64,000 bases of DNA from Ereboglobus sp. PH5-10 (lineage in GTDB: Bacteria; Verrucomicrobiota; Verrucomicrobiia; Opitutales; Opitutaceae), in assembly GCF_029504735.1 (NCBI RefSeq), contig NZ_JAQFIP010000003.1:62001-126000 (forward strand), read 5' to 3'. The notes under the pieces were generated by a model that was not told the origin of the DNA, did no database searches, and worked only from the letters and a program-made list of their open reading frames with translations. This document shows, one piece after another, positions 1,287 to 17,640 of this stretch. Made by a program: the position numbers and the translations under genes. Within the stretch, counting starts at the first letter, position 1. Every line of letters starts with the position of its first letter.

Positions 1287-4200
1287 ATGTCACAACGCCA
1301 CCTCGCCGCACTCGCGCTCTTCCTTCTTTCAGCCCTTCAGTCCTTCAGTTCTTCAGCCTTTCCCGATCTCTCGGCTATCACCACAGAGCGCTACCCCGAC
1401 GCCGATTCCGTTCTTGTGGACGAAATCATTCGCACACGTTACGCCGCCGACGGCTCGGCTTTCACACGCGCCGAAACATTCGTGAAAATCCTCACTGAAA
1501 AAGGCCTCCGCGAAAACCGCACCCACAGCATGGCCTATAATATCTTTTACGAAAGCACCGTCGTCACACTCGCCCGCATCATCCACCCCGACGGCACGGC
1601 CACGCCCATCGACATCGCCGCCAACACAAAGGAAATGACCAACCGCCGCTCGATGGCCGCAAACATCTACGACCCAAACAACAAAATCCTCACCCTCGCC
1701 CTCCCCGGCCTCAAGGTCGGCGACACCCTGCACATCGTCAAGGAAACCACCACCAAGCGTCCGCGCATGAAAGACACCTTCTGCGACTGGCAATCCTTCG
1801 AGAGCACCAGCCCGATCATCCGCAGCACCTACGAAGTTCGCGGCCCGAAGGACAAACCCCTCGCAGCCACCGCCATCCTCGACAAAAACGGCGACACGCT
1901 CACCGCCGCCACCCGCGTCGAGGGCGATGAAATCATCCACACATGGATCGCGCGCGACGTCCCCCAGGCGTTTCCCGAACCCTCGATGCCCGCCTTCTAC
2001 ATTTGCACGCAACGCCTCCTCGTCAGCACCGTCGCCACTTGGGAGGAAGTTTCCAAATGGTATTCCTCCATCTGCGAACCCCACCTCGCCAGCACGCCCG
2101 AAATCGACGCCAAGGTCGCCGAGCTCATCGCGCCGCCCGCCGGCTCCACCACGCCGCTCACCGACGACGAAAAAATCCGCCGCGTCTTCCGCTTCGTCTC
2201 GCAGGAAATCCGCTACATGGGCATCACCCTCGAAAAAGATTCGCCCGGCTTCGAACCCCACGACGTCAGCCTCACATTCAACAACCGCTACGGCGTTTGC
2301 CGCGACAAGGCCGCGCTCCTCGTCACCATGCTCCGCGCCGCCGGCTTCGACGCCGCGCCCGTCCTCATCAACGCCGGCCCGCTCGTTGATCCCGAGGTCC
2401 CGAAAATTTATTTCAACCACGCTGTCACCGCCGTCCGCCTCGCCGACGGCACCGACATCCTCATGGACTCGACCGACGAAAACACCGCCGACCTCTTCCC
2501 CAGTTACCTCGCCAACAAAAGCTACCTCGTAGCCCGCGCCGAAGGCGACACACTCCGCGTCTCGCCCGTCGCCCCGCCCGAGGAAAACATGCTCCGCGCC
2601 GCCACGCGCATCACCATTGCCGACGACGGCTCGGCCACCGGCGACATCACGCTCGACTTCAGCGGCATCAACGACAACGCCTACCGCGGCTCATTCGCCC
2701 GCGCCAAGCCCGAGGACATCCGCCGCTGGCTCGAAACCCTCCTCAAAAATCAAATCCCCGGCGCCACCCTCACCGCGCACGAAATCACCCCGCGCAACGC
2801 GATGGACACCACCCGGCCCCTCCACGCCGCGATCTCCTTCTCGGCGCCCGACTACTTCACCGTTGCCCGGGGGAAAACCATTCTCAACACACCCTGGTTC
2901 GGCGCCGACTTCTCCATCGCCTCGCGCTTTCTCGGCAACGGCACCGCGCTCGCCAAACGCCGCTTCCCCCTCGAAATCCCCTACACCTGCGGCCTCGACG
3001 AAACGCTCACGCTAAACCTCCCGCCGCGCATCGGGGACACCCTCGCCCTTCCCGACGAAACCCGCGTCGAACTCCCCGCCGTCACCTACGAAAAAACTTT
3101 CACGCGAAACAAAAACGTCATCACCGGCAAACTCGCCATGCGCCTCCGCGCCCCCCGCGTGGCCGAGGGCGAACCCTACGCGCAACTCAAGGACGCCCTC
3201 AAGGACATAGAGTATTCCGACCGCCAGGCCCCCGTGCTCGCCGCCAAATCCAAAACGCAACTCACCCCCGACATCCGCACCCTCAACAACGAACTCACCA
3301 TCACGCTCGACGACGCGCACAACTGGACGCGCCGCCGCGCCGTCCGCAAGCAAGTGCTCACCTACGCGGGCAAAAAAAATCACTCCGAAATCAAGCTCAA
3401 CTACAACCCCGTCTGGGAAACCGTCACGCTTGACCACGCCACCGTCACACTCAAGGACGGCGGCACGCGCACCGTCTCCCCCGAGGAAATCAACATCATG
3501 GACGCCCCCTGGGTTGCCCGCGCCCCGCGCTACCCCGCCGCAAAAACCATGGTCATCTCGCTCCCCGGCGTCGAGGAAGGCGCGACCATCGACACCCAAA
3601 TCACCACCACCCACAAAAACAAACCCTGGTTCGCCCTCTCGCAGTCCTATTTTGGTTTCGATCCCATCGACGCCTACACATTCACCCTCAACACCGCCGC
3701 CGGCGTAAACCTCTCCACCACCCCCGCACTCGCCGCGCTCGCCGATTCCCCAGACGAAAACCAAAATCCGAAAACAGGAACCCGCTTCCGCGTCAGCGGC
3801 TCCCGCACCGCCTCGCCCCGCGAGGGAGCGCTCCCGCCCCGCTCCTATCTCGGCCCCGTTTATCAAGCCACCACACTCAACAACCCCGCCGATTACGCGC
3901 GCCTCATCAACGCCGCCGTCGCGCCCCTCGCCGAACCCACCGCCGCCATCCGTGCCAAGGCCGCCGAACTCACCGCCGCCGCCAAAACCGAAACCGACCG
4001 CGTCGTCGCCATCCGCGATTACATTGCCCGCCACGTCCGCAACGCCGGCCCCAACTTCACCGACCTGCCGCTCTCCTGCCTCACGCCCGCCGAAAAAACC
4101 CTGGCCGACGCCTACGGCAACACCGCCGACCGCGCCATCCTCCTCGCCGCGCTCCTACGCGCCGCCGGCCTCGAACCCGAATTCCTCCTCGCCGGCTCGC

Positions 4201-5057
4201 GTGTCACAAAATTCTATTGGCAGGAAGACGACCTCTTCCCCGCCGATTCCTTCAGCCACCTCGCAGTTCGCGTCCAGGCGGACGGCGAAACCTGCTACCT
4301 CGACCACCTCAGCCTCTACGCCGACCCGCACGCCACCTCGCTCGAGGATTGCATGGTCATTGCACTCGCCACCGGAAAAATCGAAACAATCACCCCCGCG
4401 CCCAAATACCAAACCACCAGCCGCACAGACTGGCAAATAATCCTCTCCCCCGAAGGCGACGCCGCGGTCACATTCACCGCGCCCCACTACGGCGCCAACC
4501 ACGAAAGCCTCAAGCGCCGCTTCACCGAAATGACACCCGAGGACCGCGACCGTTATCACCAGTCGTGCATGACATGGATTTCGCAAGCCGCCCAACCACG
4601 CGGCGGCTTCGAGACCAACCTTGACTACCCCGCCACCTATTCGTTCTCCGCCGACGTCGCCCGCTACGCGGTCCGCAGCGGCGACTACCTCTACTTTCAA
4701 CTCCCCGCCGCCTCAACCTCGCCCACGCCCGCCGGCCCCGACACTCGCATCCACCCCCTCTTCGCCACCGCGCACCGCGACTCCACAATCCAGTGGACAA
4801 TCACGCTCCCCGAAGGTCTCGAAGTCGAAGCCGCCCCCGAAAACCTCTCATGGACCGGGCCCGGCGACTACGGCCAAATCGCAGTCATCACGGCAACCAA
4901 GACCGAAAACGCCCGCACCACGCTCACGATCACGCAAACCATCAACCTAAACCCCGCAGTGATCCCCGCCGCAAGCTACTCAACCCTCCTCGAACTCAAC
5001 CGCCGCCTCAGCCAACCCAGCCAATGGCGCGTGCTACTGAAGAAAATTAAGAAGTAA
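1287..5057 (+). CDS. Secreted DUF3857 / transglutaminase-like protein, duplicated architecture
   Basis: A 1256-residue exported protein. A signal peptide covers about residues 1-25. A DUF3857 domain (about 40-190) is followed by a transglutaminase-like fold with YGVCRDKAALL at 335-345, putting the catalytic Cys at 338, and a later FNHAVTAV and LMDSTDEN that supply the expected His and Asp. A second DUF3857-like block and a second transglutaminase-like block follow. The second reads YGNTADRAILLAALLRAAG (from 943), with Thr946 where Cys is expected, so it is probably catalytically dead. In Bacteroidota and Verrucomicrobiota such proteins are surface or periplasmic; the substrate is unknown. Part of the signal peptide is encoded by a short repeat also found near aroA. 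It lies just upstream of the macroglobulin gene on the same strand. Confidence 0.88.
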   Translation: MSQRHLAALALFLLSALQSFSSSAFPDLSAITTERYPDADSVLVDEIIRTRYAADGSAFTRAETFVKILTEKGLRENRTHSMAYNIFYESTVVTLARIIHPDGTATPIDIAANTKEMTNRRSMAANIYDPNNKILTLALPGLKVGDTLHIVKETTTKRPRMKDTFCDWQSFESTSPIIRSTYEVRGPKDKPLAATAILDKNGDTLTAATRVEGDEIIHTWIARDVPQAFPEPSMPAFYICTQRLLVSTVATWEEVSKWYSSICEPHLASTPEIDAKVAELIAPPAGSTTPLTDDEKIRRVFRFVSQEIRYMGITLEKDSPGFEPHDVSLTFNNRYGVCRDKAALLVTMLRAAGFDAAPVLINAGPLVDPEVPKIYFNHAVTAVRLADGTDILMDSTDENTADLFPSYLANKSYLVARAEGDTLRVSPVAPPEENMLRAATRITIADDGSATGDITLDFSGINDNAYRGSFARAKPEDIRRWLETLLKNQIPGATLTAHEITPRNAMDTTRPLHAAISFSAPDYFTVARGKTILNTPWFGADFSIASRFLGNGTALAKRRFPLEIPYTCGLDETLTLNLPPRIGDTLALPDETRVELPAVTYEKTFTRNKNVITGKLAMRLRAPRVAEGEPYAQLKDALKDIEYSDRQAPVLAAKSKTQLTPDIRTLNNELTITLDDAHNWTRRRAVRKQVLTYAGKKNHSEIKLNYNPVWETVTLDHATVTLKDGGTRTVSPEEINIMDAPWVARAPRYPAAKTMVISLPGVEEGATIDTQITTTHKNKPWFALSQSYFGFDPIDAYTFTLNTAAGVNLSTTPALAALADSPDENQNPKTGTRFRVSGSRTASPREGALPPRSYLGPVYQATTLNNPADYARLINAAVAPLAEPTAAIRAKAAELTAAAKTETDRVVAIRDYIARHVRNAGPNFTDLPLSCLTPAEKTLADAYGNTADRAILLAALLRAAGLEPEFLLAGSRVTKFYWQEDDLFPADSFSHLAVRVQADGETCYLDHLSLYADPHATSLEDCMVIALATGKIETITPAPKYQTTSRTDWQIILSPEGDAAVTFTAPHYGANHESLKRRFTEMTPEDRDRYHQSCMTWISQAAQPRGGFETNLDYPATYSFSADVARYAVRSGDYLYFQLPAASTSPTPAGPDTRIHPLFATAHRDSTIQWTITLPEGLEVEAAPENLSWTGPGDYGQIAVITATKTENARTTLTITQTINLNPAVIPAASYSTLLELNRRLSQPSQWRVLLKKIKK
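1326..1362 (+). repeat. TTCAG-rich short repeat inside a signal-peptide coding region
   Basis: This stretch is made of the unit CCTTCAG repeated with small variations. It matches the reverse complement of 13782-13812 at 30 of 31 positions, and overlaps in content with 13926-13959. Here it encodes the hydrophobic/serine part of the signal peptide of the DUF3857 protein. Confidence 0.7.
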
Positions 5058-5209
5058 GGGGTAAGTTTCGAGCGGAAAGACATTCCGTCGTTAAGAGGCA
5101 AAAACCAAAGCCTCAAAAAAGCCTCCCCTTCCCCGCATCACTGCGATAGCTTTTTCGCGCACCCACATTCACATCCGCGACTCACCACTCGCTGCACTTC
5201 CTCTTCGCC

Positions 5210-8200
5210 ATGCACCTCCGCCGCCTCGCCCTCGCACTCCTGTTTTCACTCTTCACCCTTCACCCTACACTCTTCGCGGCAGACCGCGCCGCGGACTGGC
5301 GCGCTGTCGCCGACGCACAAAAAGCAGGCCAGCCCCAAACCGCCGCCGCCGCGCTCGACAGTATTATCACCAACGCGCTTGCCGATGGTTCTCATGCCGA
5401 GGCGCTGAAAGCCATCCTGCAAAAAACGCAAACCGACGCCTCCGGCGAAAAACAAAAAGAGCAATCCGCTTACGTTATTCGCGCACTCAATGCCTGGCTC
5501 GCCGACACGCCGCCCGCCGACACCAACGGCAATGCTCGCCCAACGCTTTCGCCGCAAATGCGCCCGCTTCTTGAAACCGCACTCGCGAAAACTTGGTGGG
5601 CGTATTATCAAGCCAACCGTTGGCAACTCCTCCGACGCACACAAACCACCGAGCCCCCCTCCGACGATTTCCTCACTTGGGGCGCACGTCGTGTTCTTAC
5701 CGAAACCGCCTCGCACTTTGAAGCCGCGCTCGTCGATTCCGACACGCTTCAAAAAACACCCATCGCCACGCTCGCCCCCCTCCTCCTCAAAGGCAAATTC
5801 CCCGACGCCTACCGCCCCACCCTCTACGATTTCCTCGTCCACGAGGCTATCGCTTTCTACAGTGCGGGTGAACAAGGTGTTCCCAAATCCGAGGACGCCT
5901 TCGAACCCACTCCCGACTCCCCCATCCTCGGCACCCTCGAAGAATTCCTCGCATGGAATACTGCCAGCACTGGGAACGCCAGTGTCTCGCCGGCATTGCG
6001 CGCCATTCAACTTTACCAACAGCTCCTCCGCTTCCATCTCAGCGACCCCTTTCCCCCGCATGCCCTCGCCGACGCCGACCTCGCCCGCATCACATGGGCG
6101 GCCAAATTCCTCGGCAACAACGACACTACACGCAAACGCCACGCCGACGCCCTCCGTGCCTTCATCGACCGCTGGGAATACGACGACACGCGCATCGCTG
6201 TCTTCGCTTGCGCCCGCCTTGCCAAGCTTCTCGAAATCGCCGATCCCGCGGCCTCGCACGCAGCCGCAACACGGGGAGTCTCCATTGACAGGCGCGGCTA
6301 TGACAAGACCTGCCACGAAATCATAGAGCGCCTCGAGCATCCTTCAATAACCGAACTCATCACCGAATACACATGGCCTGCAGATCCCGACGCAACCATG
6401 CCCGGCATCACCGTCCGCTATCGCAACCAAACCCAAATACACTTCCGAGCCATCCCCGTTGAGTGGGAAACCTTCCTGAAAAAAAAGAACAATCGCCTCA
6501 GTCGTTTTTCGGAAAAAAATCGCCTCGAAATCCTCTCGCTCGCCCCCTCCAAAACCTGGACTGCCGAGCTTCCCGCCACACCCGATTATTGTTATCGCGA
6601 GGAAAAACTCCCCGCCCCTCGCGATCTTGAGCCCGGCTTTTACTTCATCGTCGCCAGCCTCTACAAAACCGACCTCTTTTCCGAGGAGCACAACATCACC
6701 GCATTCTCTCCCGTCTGGGTTAGCACGCTCGCCATTGTTCGCAACGAAGCTCGCGACGGTCGCATCTCGGGCTACGTCGTTGACGCCACCACTGGCGAAC
6801 CCATTGCCGACGCCACCGTCCACGCATGGCAGTCCACCGACAGCAACGAACGCGTCCCGCTCACACCCGCGCGCACAAACATCGACGGGGCATTCGAGTT
6901 CGCAAACACCGGCGCATCTTCACGCAAATACCACGATTACACCGTCCTTGCCACGGCCCTCGACGGACAAGCCATCTCAACCAAAACCCCCGTTTACATC
7001 AGAAACCCGACAGACAAAGCCAGTGCCTCCAAACAAATTTTCTTTTTCACCGACCGCTCCATCTATCGCCCCGGTCAAACGATCCAGTTCAAGGCCGTCC
7101 TCCTCCGCGCCAACGCCGCGCGCGACAACAACAAACCCCTCGCAAACCGCAGTGTGACCGTCGTCCTCAGCGACCCCAACAATAAGGAGGTCTCCCGCGT
7201 CGAATTCCGCACCAACGATTTTGGCTCCATCTCCGGCTCCTTCACCGTTCCCGCAGGACGTCTCGCGGGGCACTATCGCCTTCACGCCATCGACAAACAA
7301 GGCGGCGCCTCCTTCCGCATCGAGGAATACAAACGCCCCAAGTTTGAAGTCTCGCTCCCCGCGCCCGAAACCGCGCCCAAGCTCGACAGCGTCGTCACGC
7401 TCTCCGGCACCGCCATCGCCTACACCGGCGCGCCCATTGATGGGGCCAAGGTCAAATGGCGCGTTCGCCGCCTCGTCCGCGTGCCCGATTGGTGTTGGTG
7501 GTTCATCCCCGCAAGAACTGACCGCGAAGTAGCCCACGGCACCGGAGGCACTGATCTCGCCGGAAAATTTACCATCACCTTTGACACAATCCCCGACAAA
7601 ACCGTCGACGCTAAAAATGAGCCCGTCTTCGACTACGCCATCACCGCCGAAATAACCGACGCCACAGGCGAAACCCGCACGGTCACCCGCGTCATCTCCG
7701 TGGGCTATACCGCGCTCGCTGCCACTGTTTCCGCTGGCGAATGGCAAACCACTGATGATCCAGTCTTCTTCAATCTCGCCACAAAAACCCTCGACGGCAC
7801 CGCCCAAACAACCACCGGCACTCTTGCCATTCACGCCCTCAAGCAACCCTCCACAGTCCCGCAACCCGCGCTCCCCGCCATCTACCGCCACTTTAAAAGC
7901 AAGAATTCACCCGAGCCAAACCCCGCCGACATCCGGGGCTGGCCCGAGTCCGTCGTCGTCGCCACGCAAACCTTCACCACCGCCGCCGACACAGGCGTCG
8001 CCGAACTCACCGAAAAACTTCCCGCCGGCATTTACCGCGCCATTGTAAAAACCAAGGACCGTTTCGGAAAACCCGTAACCGCACGCACCGAGTTTCGTGT
8101 TCTCGAACCCGACTCCAACCGCTACGGCGTCAAGGAAAGTTTCAATCTCGCCGCGCCCTCATGGACAGCCCAACCGGGCGACACCATCAACGCCCTCTGG

Positions 8201-11200
8201 TCCTCCGGTTACGACAGCGCCCGCGCGCTCGTCAGCATAGAGCAAAACCAAAAAGTGCTTCGCCGCTTCTGGACAAAATCCGGCATCACCCAGCAACAAA
8301 TCTCCATCCCTGTCAGTGAATCCATGCGCGGCGGCATCACCCTTCGCATCTTCCAAATGCGCGACAACCGCCTCGTCTCAAAATCCCGGGAAATCGAAAT
8401 TCCGTGGGACAACAAGCGTCTCAAAATCACGTGGGAGCACTTCAATTCCAAACTCGTCCCCGGCGGACGAGAAACATGGGCAGCCAAAATCGCCGGTCCG
8501 GATGCCCGTAAAACTGCCGCTGAAATGACCGCGGCCCTCTACGACGCCTCGCTCGACCAGTTTTATTCGCACGGCTGGGGCGACCTCTCCGGCATCTTTC
8601 GCAGAAACCGCAACAACACTTCATGGACCGCGACCAACGCCCTGAATTCCTTCACTCTAAAAACTAAAAACACTCCACAGAAACGCACTCGAACTGTCAT
8701 CAAGTCACCCTATCGGCACTGGAATAACGCGATCTTCCGATACTGGCATAGGAATGCGTTCTCTTTTAGGGATGGTGCTGATGTTGTTGTATTGGAAAAA
8801 TTCACAGTTAGTAGTGGCCGTTCCAGAAAATCCAAAATTGCTTCGGGCAAGCAAAGCGCACAGCCGACAAGCGAACAAGATGTAGTGAGAGTCGGCGGAC
8901 TGGATCCAAAGTATGCAGGCTTTAGCATGGACGGGATTACGTTGGCCAGTGGAGGCGGAAACTCGACTGACCGAGCAAACGCCTTTCGGGTATATAATGA
9001 AGATGCCGAAACAAAGACCAGGCCATCCTCATCTCCCGCCCCCGACCTGACCGCCGTCACTGCGCGCAAGAACCTCAATGAAACAGCATTCTTCTTCCCG
9101 CAACTCCTCACTGATTCGGACGGCTCCGTGCGCATGGAGTTCACCGTGCCCGAGGCGCTCACGCGCTGGAAGTTCCTCGGCTTCGCGCACGACAAACAAC
9201 TGCGCTCCGCCATCCTCACCGACACCGCCGTCACCGCAAAAGACCTCATGGTGCAACCCAACCCGCCGCGCTTCCTGCGCGAGGGCGACACCGTCGAGTT
9301 CACCGTCAAAGTCACCAACATGACGGACAAGCCGCAAACCGGATCCGCCCAGCTCACCTTCGCCGACGCCAGCACGCTGAAAGACATGGATATATTCACC
9401 TTTGAAACAATAGATGGTGAAGCTAATCGCCCCAAGCGTCCTTTTACATTGGCACCAAATTCATCGAAAACAATTTCATGGCGCATTTATGTTTCCGACG
9501 GCCAGGGTTTCCTCACCTACAAAGCCGTCGCCTCCACCGGCGCGGTCAGCGACGGCGAGGAGGGTTTTCTGCCCGTCCTCAGTCGCCGCCAGCTCGTCAC
9601 CGAATCCATCACGCTGCCCGTCCGCGACAAAGGCACTTACACATTCAGCTTCGACAAACTCGCCGCATCCGCAACCGACACCACCCTTCGCCACGAATCC
9701 CTGACCGTGCAAATGACCGGCAACCCCGCTTGGTATGCCGTGCTTGCGCTGCCCAACCTCATGGAATACCCGCACGAATGCACCGAGCAACTCTTCAACC
9801 GCTACTACGCCAACGCCCTCGCCGCGCACATCGCCAACTCCGACCCGAAAATCGCGCGCGTCTTCGAGCAATGGCGCAACACCCCCGCGCTCGAATCGCC
9901 CCTCCTCAAAAACGAGGACCTCAAATCCGTGCTCATCGAGGAAACCCCGTGGCTGCACGACGCCACGCGCGAAAGTGAAAACCGCCGCGCCATCGGAAAT
10001 CTCTTCGATGCCAACCGCACCGCCGCGCAAACCCAGGCCATCATCGCGCAACTCGCCGAGCGCCAGATGAACGACGGACTCTGGGCATGGTTCCCCGGCG
10101 GACGCGGCAGCGACTACATCACCCGCTACCTCGTCGCCGGATTCGCGCGCCTGCGCCACTTCGAGAAAAAATCCGTCCAGGGGGGCGCGCGCGTCCCGCG
10201 TGCTGACACAGGCGTCCCGCCTGTTGCCCAAGCCATGCTCAAGCGCGCCGTCACCGCGCTCGACGCCGCCCTCGCCAAACACCACGCAGAGCTCATTGCC
10301 ACGGAAGACTTCAACCCCGCCGACAACCACATCCGCAGCGCCGACGCATTCCAACTCTACACGCGCAGCTTCTACCTGAAGGAAATCCCCATCCCCGACA
10401 CCGCCCGCGCCGCCTACGACTTCTACGCCGCGCAAGCCCGCAAACACTGGCTCTCGCTCCCGCGCCAATCCCAAGGCCACGCCGCTCTCGCGCTCGCCCG
10501 CATGGGCGACACCGCCACACCCGCCGCCATCGTCACCTCGCTCAAACAACACGCCAAAAACCACGACGAACTCGGCATGTATTGGGCCGACACCAACCGC
10601 GGCTGGTTCTGGTGGCAGGCCCCAATCGAAACCCAGGCGCTCATGATCGAAGTCTTCGACGAAGTCGCGCGCGACTCCCAAGCCGTCTCCGACCTCCAAC
10701 TCTGGCTGCTCAAGCAAAAGCAAACCCAAGCCTGGCCCAGCACCAAGGCGACCGCCGACGCCGTCTACGCGCTGCTCCTGCGCGGCGCCGACAAACTCGC
10801 ATCCGACGCCCTTGTCACCGTTTCACTTGGCGGCAAAAAAATCGCCCCTGCCCAATCCGAAGCCGGCACCGGCTATTATCGCGAACGCATCCCCGGCCCC
10901 TCGATCACACCCTCAATGGGAGAAAAAATCACCGTCACCAAAACCGACGCCGGACCGGCGTGGGGCGGCGTCACCTGGCAGTATCTTCAAACCATCGACA
11001 AAATCACCCCGCACGAAGGCACGCCGCTCACGCTCAAGAAAACCCTCTGGAAACAAATCAACACATCGAGCGGCCCAACCCTCGTCGCGCTCGACAAAAC
11101 CAAGCTCGAACCCGGCGACACCCTCATCGCGCGCATCGAACTGCGCACCGACCGCGACATGGAGTTCGTGCACTTGAAAGACCAACGCGGCAGCGGCACC

Positions 11201-11440
11201 GAGCCGGTCAACGTCCTGAGCGGCTACCGCTGGAAAAACGGCCTCGGTTACTATGAAAGCACGCGCGACACCGCCACGCACTTCTTCATGGACTGGCTGC
11301 CCGCCGGCACGCACGTGTTCGAGTATCCGGTGCGCGTGCAACTGCGCGGCGTCTACGAAAGCGGCATCGCCGAAATCCAGTGCATGTATGCGCCCGAATA
11401 CAACTCCCACTCCGCCAGCACCACCCTCGTCGTCGAATAG
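5210..11440 (+). CDS. Alpha-2-macroglobulin family protein (bacterial, thioester type)
   Basis: A 2076-residue protein with a signal peptide (MHLRRLALALLFSLFTLHPT to about residue 23). A carboxypeptidase-regulatory-like domain (GRISGYVVDATTGEPIADA, about 522) precedes an MG2-type segment with TDRSIYRPGQTI (about 613). The A2M core begins at NETAFFFPQLLTD (about 1288) with PEALTRWKFLGFAHDK. The thioester is intact: HECTEQ, Cys1524 to Gln1527, followed by the alpha-helical thioester domain. Bacterial macroglobulins trap proteases that attack the envelope. Its usual partner, penicillin-binding protein 1C, is absent; the neighbour is a DUF3857/transglutaminase gene. Bases about 8640-9010 are clearly AT-richer than the rest and encode a plug-like insert. 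A palindromic insertion at about 10190-10225 adds a linker in the thioester domain. Confidence 0.92.
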   Translation: MHLRRLALALLFSLFTLHPTLFAADRAADWRAVADAQKAGQPQTAAAALDSIITNALADGSHAEALKAILQKTQTDASGEKQKEQSAYVIRALNAWLADTPPADTNGNARPTLSPQMRPLLETALAKTWWAYYQANRWQLLRRTQTTEPPSDDFLTWGARRVLTETASHFEAALVDSDTLQKTPIATLAPLLLKGKFPDAYRPTLYDFLVHEAIAFYSAGEQGVPKSEDAFEPTPDSPILGTLEEFLAWNTASTGNASVSPALRAIQLYQQLLRFHLSDPFPPHALADADLARITWAAKFLGNNDTTRKRHADALRAFIDRWEYDDTRIAVFACARLAKLLEIADPAASHAAATRGVSIDRRGYDKTCHEIIERLEHPSITELITEYTWPADPDATMPGITVRYRNQTQIHFRAIPVEWETFLKKKNNRLSRFSEKNRLEILSLAPSKTWTAELPATPDYCYREEKLPAPRDLEPGFYFIVASLYKTDLFSEEHNITAFSPVWVSTLAIVRNEARDGRISGYVVDATTGEPIADATVHAWQSTDSNERVPLTPARTNIDGAFEFANTGASSRKYHDYTVLATALDGQAISTKTPVYIRNPTDKASASKQIFFFTDRSIYRPGQTIQFKAVLLRANAARDNNKPLANRSVTVVLSDPNNKEVSRVEFRTNDFGSISGSFTVPAGRLAGHYRLHAIDKQGGASFRIEEYKRPKFEVSLPAPETAPKLDSVVTLSGTAIAYTGAPIDGAKVKWRVRRLVRVPDWCWWFIPARTDREVAHGTGGTDLAGKFTITFDTIPDKTVDAKNEPVFDYAITAEITDATGETRTVTRVISVGYTALAATVSAGEWQTTDDPVFFNLATKTLDGTAQTTTGTLAIHALKQPSTVPQPALPAIYRHFKSKNSPEPNPADIRGWPESVVVATQTFTTAADTGVAELTEKLPAGIYRAIVKTKDRFGKPVTARTEFRVLEPDSNRYGVKESFNLAAPSWTAQPGDTINALWSSGYDSARALVSIEQNQKVLRRFWTKSGITQQQISIPVSESMRGGITLRIFQMRDNRLVSKSREIEIPWDNKRLKITWEHFNSKLVPGGRETWAAKIAGPDARKTAAEMTAALYDASLDQFYSHGWGDLSGIFRRNRNNTSWTATNALNSFTLKTKNTPQKRTRTVIKSPYRHWNNAIFRYWHRNAFSFRDGADVVVLEKFTVSSGRSRKSKIASGKQSAQPTSEQDVVRVGGLDPKYAGFSMDGITLASGGGNSTDRANAFRVYNEDAETKTRPSSSPAPDLTAVTARKNLNETAFFFPQLLTDSDGSVRMEFTVPEALTRWKFLGFAHDKQLRSAILTDTAVTAKDLMVQPNPPRFLREGDTVEFTVKVTNMTDKPQTGSAQLTFADASTLKDMDIFTFETIDGEANRPKRPFTLAPNSSKTISWRIYVSDGQGFLTYKAVASTGAVSDGEEGFLPVLSRRQLVTESITLPVRDKGTYTFSFDKLAASATDTTLRHESLTVQMTGNPAWYAVLALPNLMEYPHECTEQLFNRYYANALAAHIANSDPKIARVFEQWRNTPALESPLLKNEDLKSVLIEETPWLHDATRESENRRAIGNLFDANRTAAQTQAIIAQLAERQMNDGLWAWFPGGRGSDYITRYLVAGFARLRHFEKKSVQGGARVPRADTGVPPVAQAMLKRAVTALDAALAKHHAELIATEDFNPADNHIRSADAFQLYTRSFYLKEIPIPDTARAAYDFYAAQARKHWLSLPRQSQGHAALALARMGDTATPAAIVTSLKQHAKNHDELGMYWADTNRGWFWWQAPIETQALMIEVFDEVARDSQAVSDLQLWLLKQKQTQAWPSTKATADAVYALLLRGADKLASDALVTVSLGGKKIAPAQSEAGTGYYRERIPGPSITPSMGEKITVTKTDAGPAWGGVTWQYLQTIDKITPHEGTPLTLKKTLWKQINTSSGPTLVALDKTKLEPGDTLIARIELRTDRDMEFVHLKDQRGSGTEPVNVLSGYRWKNGLGYYESTRDTATHFFMDWLPAGTHVFEYPVRVQLRGVYESGIAEIQCMYAPEYNSHSASTTLVVE
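10186..10226 (+). repeat. Palindromic insertion within the macroglobulin gene
   Basis: Arms acaggcg (10208-10214) and cgcctgt (10218-10224) flank a 3-base loop, preceded by a GC-rich gcgcgtcccgcgtgc segment. In frame it encodes a Gly/Pro/Val linker containing RADTGVPPV, out of character with the helical domain around it. This looks like an in-frame repeat insertion of the type also seen in dnaE and gyrB. Confidence 0.45.
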
Positions 11441-15480: not shown

Positions 15481-16059
15481 ATGAAAACCGTGAGACAGTT
15501 CATGATAATAATGCTGGCGACTGTGCTCTCGGCTGGCGCGCTCAACGCGCGGGACATTTCGGATTACATCAAGGAACTCGACGAGAGCCCGTATCCGGAA
15601 ATGGATAAGGAATATTATTTGAGGCACTGCATTTGGTTTGAGCGGGGAAAGCACAAGACGACCAATTACGCGCGCGGTGAAATGCTGCCCGTGAACACGA
15701 AGGTGACGCTCCTCTATTTGTCCGGCAGCGACATGTCCATTCGGGTGAATGAAACGGGCAAGGTTGTGAAGGTGAACAACGTGATCAATTTTTCGAGAAA
15801 ACACATGTCAACGATCGCCCGCCTCATGCTGTCACCGAAAGAGGTTTCCGTCAGCGGGGAATTTGCGGAAAGCATCCGCAACGGCGAGCCGCGCCTTGGC
15901 ATGACAAAGGAGGAAGTCGTCATGACGCGCGGCTGGCCCCCGGCGCACAAGACCGATTCGCTCGTCCGGGACAAATGGATGTATTGGAGCAGCAAGCTCG
16001 TCGTGCACACGCTGGAGTTTGAGGGCGAAAAGCTCGTCAAGGGACGCGGGATACACTGA
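15481..16059 (+). CDS. Secreted BamE/SmpA-like protein, tandem family copy 1
   Basis: A 192-residue protein with an N-terminal signal sequence (about residues 1-23, ending SAGALNARD, no lipobox Cys). A conserved N-terminal half shared by all three copies contains SDYIKELDESPYPE, KEYYLRHCIW and a TNYARGEMLPVNTKV strand-like segment. The C-terminal half has LGMTKEEVVMTRGWPPAH (139-156), then W-Y and FEGEKL. The G-M-T-x-x-E-V ... G-x-P ... W-x-Y ... F-x-x-x-K-L layout is that of BamE/SmpA-type small beta domains. Function is unknown; periplasmic or outer-membrane association is inferred. About 60 percent similar to copies 2 and 3 by eye. Confidence 0.75.
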   Translation: MKTVRQFMIIMLATVLSAGALNARDISDYIKELDESPYPEMDKEYYLRHCIWFERGKHKTTNYARGEMLPVNTKVTLLYLSGSDMSIRVNETGKVVKVNNVINFSRKHMSTIARLMLSPKEVSVSGEFAESIRNGEPRLGMTKEEVVMTRGWPPAHKTDSLVRDKWMYWSSKLVVHTLEFEGEKLVKGRGIH

Positions 16060-16212
16060 GCGGAAAAACCTGATTGAGGCCTGGCGGGGAGAGACCCCGC
16101 GGCCCGCGCGCGCCCTGGGTGCAACGCGGGCTTGAATGCGTTTCCGTTTTCATTTTTTCTAGTCTTAGAACAAAAAACTTTTTCCGTTCAAAAACCTCAA
16201 AATCCAAAAAAC

Positions 16213-16791
16213 ATGAAAACGCTAAAATGGTTCGCGACATTAACAATGGCGGCTTTGCTCTCATCGGGCGCGCTCAATGCGAGGGATGTTTCCGATTACC
16301 TCAAGGAACTCGAAAAATCCCCGGCGCCCGAGCCGGGCAAGGAGTATTACCTGCGCTATTGCATCTGGCATGAAAACGACGCGCACAACACCACCAACTA
16401 CACGCGCGGCGACCTCGTGCCGGCAAACACCAAGGTGACGCTTCTCGAATTGTCCGGCAGGAGAATGACCATTCGGATAAGCACGACCGGAGCCACCGTG
16501 AAAATCGACAACGCGGAAAAGTTCACCCGGAAAAACATGAAAATAATCGCCCGCAACATGCTCTCGCCGACCGAGGTTTCGATCAGCAAGGAATTCGCCG
16601 ACAGCATTCGCAACGGGGAATTGCGCATCGGCATGACCAAGGAGGAGGCAATCATGGCGCGCGGCTGGCCTCCGGCGCACAAAACCGGCTCGCTTACGCG
16701 CGACACATGGACCTATTGGAGCAGCCGCTTTGTCACGCAGGCGGTCGTGTTCAAGGACGGCAAATTGGACGCGGGACGCGGCATCAATTAA
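16213..16791 (+). CDS. Secreted BamE/SmpA-like protein, tandem family copy 2
   Basis: A 192-residue paralogue, the closest to copy 1. The start at 16213 (MKTLKWFATLTMAALLSSGA) is chosen over an in-frame upstream ATG because it restores the signal peptide and aligns with copies 1 and 3. It keeps ALNARDVSDYLKELEKSP, KEYYLRYCIW, TNYTRGDLVPANTKV and IGMTKEEAIMARGWPPAH (139-156), then WTYW and FKDGKL. A Rho-independent terminator follows, and copy 3 has its own terminator, so the copies are probably separate transcription units. Confidence 0.75.
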   Translation: MKTLKWFATLTMAALLSSGALNARDVSDYLKELEKSPAPEPGKEYYLRYCIWHENDAHNTTNYTRGDLVPANTKVTLLELSGRRMTIRISTTGATVKIDNAEKFTRKNMKIIARNMLSPTEVSISKEFADSIRNGELRIGMTKEEAIMARGWPPAHKTGSLTRDTWTYWSSRFVTQAVVFKDGKLDAGRGIN

Positions 16792-16823
16792 CCAACTGGC
16801 GCGCACCCAAACGCCCGCATGAG

Positions 16824-16858
16824 GAACCCCGCGAAAAGCCGCGGGGTTCTTTGTTTTT
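16824..16858 (+). terminator. Rho-independent terminator after copy 2
   Basis: The 9-base stem gaaccccgc / gcggggttc (16824-16832, 16841-16849) with an 8-base loop is followed by tttgttttt. Confidence 0.85.
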
Positions 16859-16992
16859 CAGAGGGAAAACAGCCCGCCATTGAAACAAAAAGGTATTTTC
16901 CCCGCGCGTCTTTTTTGTAAAAAAACTGAAAACCCAAAAACTTTCGGACTGGAATGAAAACTTTTTAGGCAATTTGAGTCTAATACCAATGT

Positions 16993-17589
16993 ATGAAAAC
17001 AATAACCCGTTTTGTGGCCGCCGCCCCCCTTGCATTCCTGCTCGCGTTTTGCGGAACGCTTCGCGCCGGAGACATCGCCGATTACGTCAAGGAAATCGAG
17101 AAGGCGCCGATCCCAGAGGAAGGGAAAGCGTATTATCTACGCCACGCCATCTGGTGCGAGATGTGGAAATATGACGCGACGAATTATGCCCGTGGCACAT
17201 TGCTGCCGATCAACACAAAGGTGCGCGTCGAGAAAATGCTCGGCGAAACAATGTCGATTCGCGTGATCTCAAGCTCGCAACTCGTCTGGATTCGCAACCG
17301 GACCAAATACACCGACAAGAGCATGTATGAGGTCGCGCGGCGGATGCTTTCGGAAAAGGAAATTTCACTGAAGGGCCACGAGAAGGAAACGGCGGCGGCC
17401 ATACAAAGCGGGCGAATGATTTTGGGGATGACCAAGGAGGAAGTCATCATGGCCCGCGGCTGGCCGCCCGCGCATCGCACGCCATCGCTCGACCTGAACA
17501 CATGGGTTTACTGGCCGAGCCGGTTTGTCACGCAGACAATCATCTTCAAGGACGGCAAGCTCGCCGAAGGGCGGGATATCGGCAACTGA
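16993..17589 (+). CDS. Secreted BamE/SmpA-like protein, tandem family copy 3
   Basis: A 198-residue and more divergent paralogue. The signal peptide is MKTITRFVAAAPLAFLLAFC to about residue 25. It contains a Cys at 20 (LLAFCGT), possibly a lipobox but without clear consensus. The shared core is GDIADYVKEIEKAP, KAYYLRHAIW, TNYARGTLLPINTKV, LGMTKEEVIMARGWPPAH, then WVYW and FKDGKL. A strong terminator follows directly. It appears to be a lineage-specific expansion: the same domain pair three times in 2.1 kb. Confidence 0.75.
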   Translation: MKTITRFVAAAPLAFLLAFCGTLRAGDIADYVKEIEKAPIPEEGKAYYLRHAIWCEMWKYDATNYARGTLLPINTKVRVEKMLGETMSIRVISSSQLVWIRNRTKYTDKSMYEVARRMLSEKEISLKGHEKETAAAIQSGRMILGMTKEEVIMARGWPPAHRTPSLDLNTWVYWPSRFVTQTIIFKDGKLAEGRDIGN

Positions 17590-17603: not shown

Positions 17604-17640
17604 AAAAAAAGCACAGACAGAAATGTCTGTGCTTTTTTTA
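17604..17640 (+). terminator. Rho-independent terminator after copy 3
   Basis: A 16-base stem (17604-17619 with 17624-17639) containing gcacagaca/tgtctgtgc and a gaaa tetraloop, flanked by A and T runs. It could terminate in both directions and so also serve the convergent oxidoreductase gene. Confidence 0.9.

Follow-up and report, generated by a model that had tools for sequence, protein, structure and literature searches.

A tandem triplet of exported SH3-like and BamE-like proteins from a family that recurs in aryl-polyene gene clusters

Three adjacent genes in the window, as we call the whole 64 kb stretch of DNA that was analyzed, encode exported paralogs with a predicted SH3-like N-terminal domain and a BamE-like C-terminal domain, and many loci that hold homologs, one of them in a genome of the same genus, are located in aryl-polyene (APE) gene clusters, a location that constitutes the novelty of the finding. 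The interpretation that we prefer, and that we consider to have about an even chance of being correct, is that the triplet arose by lineage-specific triplication within a widespread but unnamed family of periplasmic docking or adaptor proteins of the cell envelope, whose members serve as APE accessory proteins in several lineages. In several lineages, gene linkage shows that the family belongs to APE clusters as an accessory component; the paralogy, predicted domain folds, synteny and purifying selection of the triplet and the distribution of the family were likewise established by computation. The features discussed are the following:

15481-16059, forward strand: gene 1, a 192-residue exported SH3-like plus BamE-like protein (open reading frame, AlphaFold model, syntenic ortholog).
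15610-15780, forward strand: N-terminal SH3-like domain in gene 1, roughly residues 44-100 (model strands E44-E99).
15880-16056, forward strand: C-terminal BamE-like domain in gene 1, roughly residues 134-192, with equivalents in genes 2 and 3.
16213-16791, forward strand: gene 2, a 192-residue paralog, its start taken as the ATG at 16213.
16824-16858, forward strand: terminator-like hairpin with T tract, 3' of gene 2 (folding energy; kept in the same-genus genome).
16900-16992, forward strand: AT-rich block, candidate promoter or 5' region of gene 3, nearly unchanged in the same-genus genome.
16993-17589, forward strand: gene 3, a 198-residue paralog and the most divergent of the three.
17604-17639, forward strand: terminator-like hairpin, 3' of gene 3 (-28 kcal/mol, z -5.9).

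An earlier note on this DNA had described three tandem secreted paralogs of about 195 residues, and this description holds, with lengths of 192, 192 and 198 residues, pairwise identities of 47-61% and starts that resemble signal peptides. Over their full length genes 1 and 2 are 61% identical, genes 1 and 3 47-49% (E=1e-62) and genes 2 and 3 53%, and as evidenced by a search of the genome they are its only full-length copies. For gene 2, the list of open reading frames holds an upstream TTG at 16132 as an alternative start. All three proteins begin with MKT-, followed by a hydrophobic core and the sequence 'LNA/RD' or 'LRA/GD', and no convincing lipobox was found in any of them. Note that a 160-residue lipoprotein with a distant BamE-like pattern is encoded on the reverse strand of contig C1 of this genome (L004:1330-1809). 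It resembles the triplet weakly and over the C-terminal half only, and the weak matches observed in many Opitutaceae may be its orthologs.

AlphaFold modeling of gene 1 and gene 3, based in each case on an alignment with homologs, gave mean pLDDT values of 90.6 and 90.5, respectively, and the secondary-structure elements of the two models come in the same order. When both models were used in PDB fold searches, in which no single match attained E<=0.001, the N-terminal domain was matched mostly by small barrels of the SH3/Tudor type, and it is a predicted SH3-like barrel. In gene 1 it carries the signature YY.R...TNY.RG..P.NTKV...N, to which corresponding stretches exist in the other two genes. 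The earlier note had called this domain shared but unfamiliar; it is indeed shared, but the models and the SH3/Tudor matches make it less unfamiliar than it had seemed, and while the C-terminal motif is conserved as described, the proteins are not simply divergent elsewhere, the N-terminal domain being well conserved too. In many verrucomicrobial members of the family (L023, L029, L018, L024 and others) an extra N-terminal segment, LTN(D/E)..V.KM..AGL...TI, precedes the SH3-like domain; Pfam has no name for it.

The C-terminal pattern GMTKEE..RGWPPAH..W.YW...F.KL is present as reported before, in gene 1 as GMTKEEV...RGWPPAH...W.YW...F..KL, and, judged by sequence profiles and by the models, the C-terminal domain is truly, though remotely, related to BamE and is used in another protein. 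In hhalign, the family C-terminal domain aligned to a canonical BamE profile, built from three sequences only, with a probability of 94.9 and a P of 4e-8, as compared to 0.0 for the N-terminal domain and 4.4 for the best of 100 column shuffles. The BamE/SmpA profile PF04355 was matched weakly by 29 of 43 homologs (E<=0.1, best 7e-5), while gene 1 itself scored 12.1 bits (E=0.18), below the gathering cut-off of 23.2 bits, and genes 2 and 3 gave no match; the profile thus sustains a remote similarity but not membership at the cut-off. In the fold searches with the models of genes 1 and 3, the top PDB match of gene 1 is BamE from Neisseria gonorrhoeae (5wam; E 0.038, probability 0.93), whereas BamE is absent among the 50 matches listed for gene 3. 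Taken as remote homology, the BamE-like C-terminus is supported by the weak PF04355 matches, the hhalign score and the top fold of gene 1.

The same homology speaks for a more literal reading, in which the proteins would be diverged BamE that acts as a BAM accessory and, in a lineage that has no canonical BamE, works with BamA and BamD to insert beta-barrels. It is in line with this that the genome of the window encodes two Omp85 proteins and has no BamE above the Pfam cut-off; none above this cut-off was found in six related genomes. We nevertheless regard this explanation as unlikely. Of 17 genomes that contain a family member, 10 encode canonical BamE above the cut-off in a separate gene, the QGN motif, located before the first helix in the canonical BamE used here, is found in 0 of 49 family rows, and no linkage of the family to bam genes was seen. 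Moreover, a full-length member is present in only 8 of 200 genomes of the window's taxonomic family, so that most relatives manage without it. In the BAM sense, the label 'outer-membrane-assembly-like' given earlier is unsupported, with no QGN, scores below the cut-off and canonical BamE separately encoded in 10 of the 17 genomes.

Pfam and NCBIfam returned nothing above cut-off for the three proteins alone, and neither these nor PADLOC provided a family name for the whole protein. PADLOC gave no convincing match on the family, hence no sign of the defence role that was considered and rejected, and a viral fold library yielded no meaningful match. A contig search with the three window proteins alone found no homologs; these were retrieved once relatives were added as queries, and come from Opitutaceae and other Verrucomicrobiota, Methylococcales, Marinobacter, Gilvimarinus, Arenicella, Desulfobacterota, Campylobacterota and Planctomycetota. 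In a phylum-wide sample, 108 of 388 genomes contained a family match, a few of them C-terminal only. Many gammaproteobacterial and campylobacterotal homologs have a lipobox, as counted with a strict regular expression that missed some evident ones. In Sulfurimonas SAG-AH-194-C20 (L049:4875-6233) a family member, apparently a lipoprotein, carries a caspase (Peptidase_C14) domain as a fusion.

Unsupervised clustering of the genes neighboring the homologs revealed recurrent ketosynthases, glycosyltransferases, acyltransferases, FAD halogenase-like enzymes, MMPL exporters and LolA-like proteins, and Pfam searches on the neighbors identified an ApeI-like dehydratase, aromatic amino acid lyase, GT2, LPLAT, 4HBT, MMPL and LolA_3 as well as ketosynthase and FkbO/Hyg5 chorismatase. 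With the 18 ApeA-R proteins of E. coli CFT073 as independent queries, 11 of the 45 loci with a homolog (44 of the loci being distinct) had at least two APE genes within a distance of 5 kb. Eight loci of canonical BamE, taken from genomes that also contain homologs, served as controls, and none of them had such a pair. Against an assumed chance of about 0.6% that a random 10-kb stretch touches an APE cluster, 11 of 45 lies far outside what chance would give (binomial 5e-15, with loci treated as independent of relatedness). Verrucomicrobial APE queries added further loci, and in several Verrucomicrobiota a chorismatase lies beside or near the homolog. The linkage recurs in Gammaproteobacteria, Campylobacterota and Verrucomicrobiota: in Methylovulum miyakonense (L040:4998-5561) the order is apeC-D-E-F-G-H/I-[gene]-J-...-K, at another locus (L046) the homolog follows apeR, and in a genome of the same genus as the window (G555, locus L124) it heads the APE cluster. 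Within the window's taxonomic family, an ApeM-type exporter is present in 8 of 8 family-positive genomes versus 69 of 200 overall (hypergeometric 1.5e-4, uncorrected for relatedness, the eight genomes representing five genera only). A derivation of the family from ApeA or ApeN by divergence was considered and rejected for lack of sequence similarity. In the literature searched, to which subscription journals mostly did not belong, we found no paper tying BamE-like proteins to aryl polyenes.

The 64 kb window itself contains no APE genes, and the triplet is unlinked to the APE cluster of its genome, where an ApeM-type exporter, ketosynthases, ACP, LPLAT and GT are found at the ends of contigs C19 and C29. 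This APE-type cluster is apparently split between the two (G000:C19:40312-42222 and G000:C29:1-7216; L173, L174). The link of the triplet to APE is thus indirect and follows from the shared family, the same-genus copy inside a cluster and the APE genes in the genome. The earlier statement that the proteins match no named system remains valid for the window copies, which are not APE-linked, but is narrowed by the many homologs that sit in APE clusters.

Many Marinobacter, Gilvimarinus, Arenicella and Desulfobacterales loci have no APE cluster within 5 kb of the homolog, and other relatives lack APE genes, so that APE is not the sole role of the family. In the phylum sample, a full-length ApeM match is absent from most of nearly 100 family-positive genomes outside Opitutales, and in these the gene often has other neighbors, which indicates a broader envelope module; this module entered APE clusters repeatedly or early and was lost from or is absent in others. 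These observations lend an appreciable, if lesser, probability to the explanation that the proteins are general envelope or peptidoglycan adaptors, whose SH3-like domain would bind a wall or envelope ligand while the BamE-like domain docks an outer-membrane partner, with APE one recruitment of several and the window copies unrelated to it. Its case includes the members without APE neighbors, the separation of the window copies from the APE cluster of their genome, and the finding that in other families of the phylum (L195-L213) the homolog often precedes genes for an NAD-dependent epimerase and a Mur-ligase-like protein, the latter label being our reading of the sequence and not a Pfam result. 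However, APE linkage in Gammaproteobacteria, Campylobacterota and Verrucomicrobiota, a same-genus genome included, is too frequent for a single isolated recruitment.

On the preferred reading, of docking proteins with an accessory role in APE clusters, the family members would be periplasmic, lipid-anchored where a lipobox is present and soluble in the case of the window copies. The SH3-like barrel would bind a ligand or partner, the BamE-like domain would dock at the outer membrane, and jointly they might help to place or organize envelope lipid or protein there. APE lipids sit in the outer membrane, and the proposed route involves ApeM with the LolA/LolB-like ApeL and ApeN (PMC8253772). An exported docking protein would fit this route, and for APE-linked members the cargo could be the APE lipid, handled beside the ApeL/M/N-type transport proteins. 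The window copies, duplicated and away from the APE cluster, may have moved to other envelope substrates. A bolder version, in which the unnamed family is a dedicated outer-membrane-side factor for APE lipids in several phyla and the triplet comprises unlinked duplicates acting on the same or related envelope lipids, we hold to be doubtful. For the triplet, an APE-related or general envelope role is our best current guess.

In the complete genome G524 of the same genus the triplet is found in the same order with the same neighbors on either side, and gene 1 is 98% identical to its syntenic ortholog. Approximate dN/dS values against the same-genus orthologs are 0.13 for gene 1, 0.31 for gene 2 and 0.075 for gene 3, similar to or not far above those of neighboring genes, and the triplet is under purifying selection. 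In the family tree gene 1 pairs with gene 2 as its sister (98/93), and the triplet copies cluster, at moderate support (83/91), with the copies found in close relatives, from which the triplication appears lineage-specific. Among the 200 genomes surveyed in the taxonomic family, an intact triplet was found in two same-genus genomes. The term lineage-specific, as used in the earlier note, thus fits the triplication and not the protein family, which spans several phyla. That three near-redundant copies stand in tandem where most relatives have one or none could also be taken to mean that a minor secreted protein was duplicated into redundant or decaying copies without distinct function. This is highly improbable, as in two genomes each of the three genes is intact, retains its syntenic position and evolves under purifying selection, and the terminators are preserved.

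Two of the genes had been proposed to have their own terminators, and hairpins with T tracts were indeed located 3' of genes 2 and 3. The first, missing from the list of the pattern scanner, consists of a hairpin at 16824-16849 followed by TTTGTTTTT, and the region 16805-16870 folds with -27.9 kcal/mol (z -3.3). The hairpin after gene 3 is identical in a same-genus relative by DNA alignment, while none was found 3' of gene 1 (z -1.7). Separate promoters for the triplet genes are plausible, and a candidate is the AT-rich block of about 90 bp 5' of gene 3, almost invariant in a relative in which the remaining spacers have changed; a scan for consensus promoters gave a sole sigma-70-like match, inside gene 1 and at chance level. 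The triplet is flanked by plsC/cmk/aroA upstream and by a Gfo/Idh-type oxidoreductase gene on the opposite strand downstream. A functional operon of the triplet with its window neighbors was rejected, as the neighbors are ordinary and same-genus synteny spans the entire region. Elsewhere in the window (1287-11440), a DUF3857/transglutaminase protein (1287-5057) and a bacterial alpha-2-macroglobulin (5210-11440) are encoded side by side.

Aryl polyenes are yellow membrane pigments, and an exported protein without a name that recurs in their gene clusters offers a concrete new candidate, testable via a visible pigment; moreover, the family has a BamE-like domain employed outside canonical BamE and fused to an SH3-like barrel across several phyla. 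With BamE/SmpA/OmlA (PF04355) it shares the common pattern G-M-[TS]-K..V...G.P....W.Y...F...L, the profile similarity and the fold match of gene 1. It differs in the additional SH3-like N-terminal domain, in an extra PP.HeTPSL..d.W.YW.SRF signature, in the lack of QGN and lipobox in the triplet and its scores below the Pfam cut-off, and in that it coexists with canonical BamE elsewhere. With the SH3/Tudor small barrels the N-terminal domain has the predicted fold in common, but it matches no Pfam SH3 family, and it has a shared TNY.RG..P.NT.V signature. The ApeA-R proteins of E. coli CFT073 have no sequence similarity to the family, of which the E. coli cluster contains no homolog; like ApeL, ApeM, ApeN and the lipoprotein ApeA, however, the family members are exported, often as lipoproteins, and at many homologous loci are encoded in the APE cluster.
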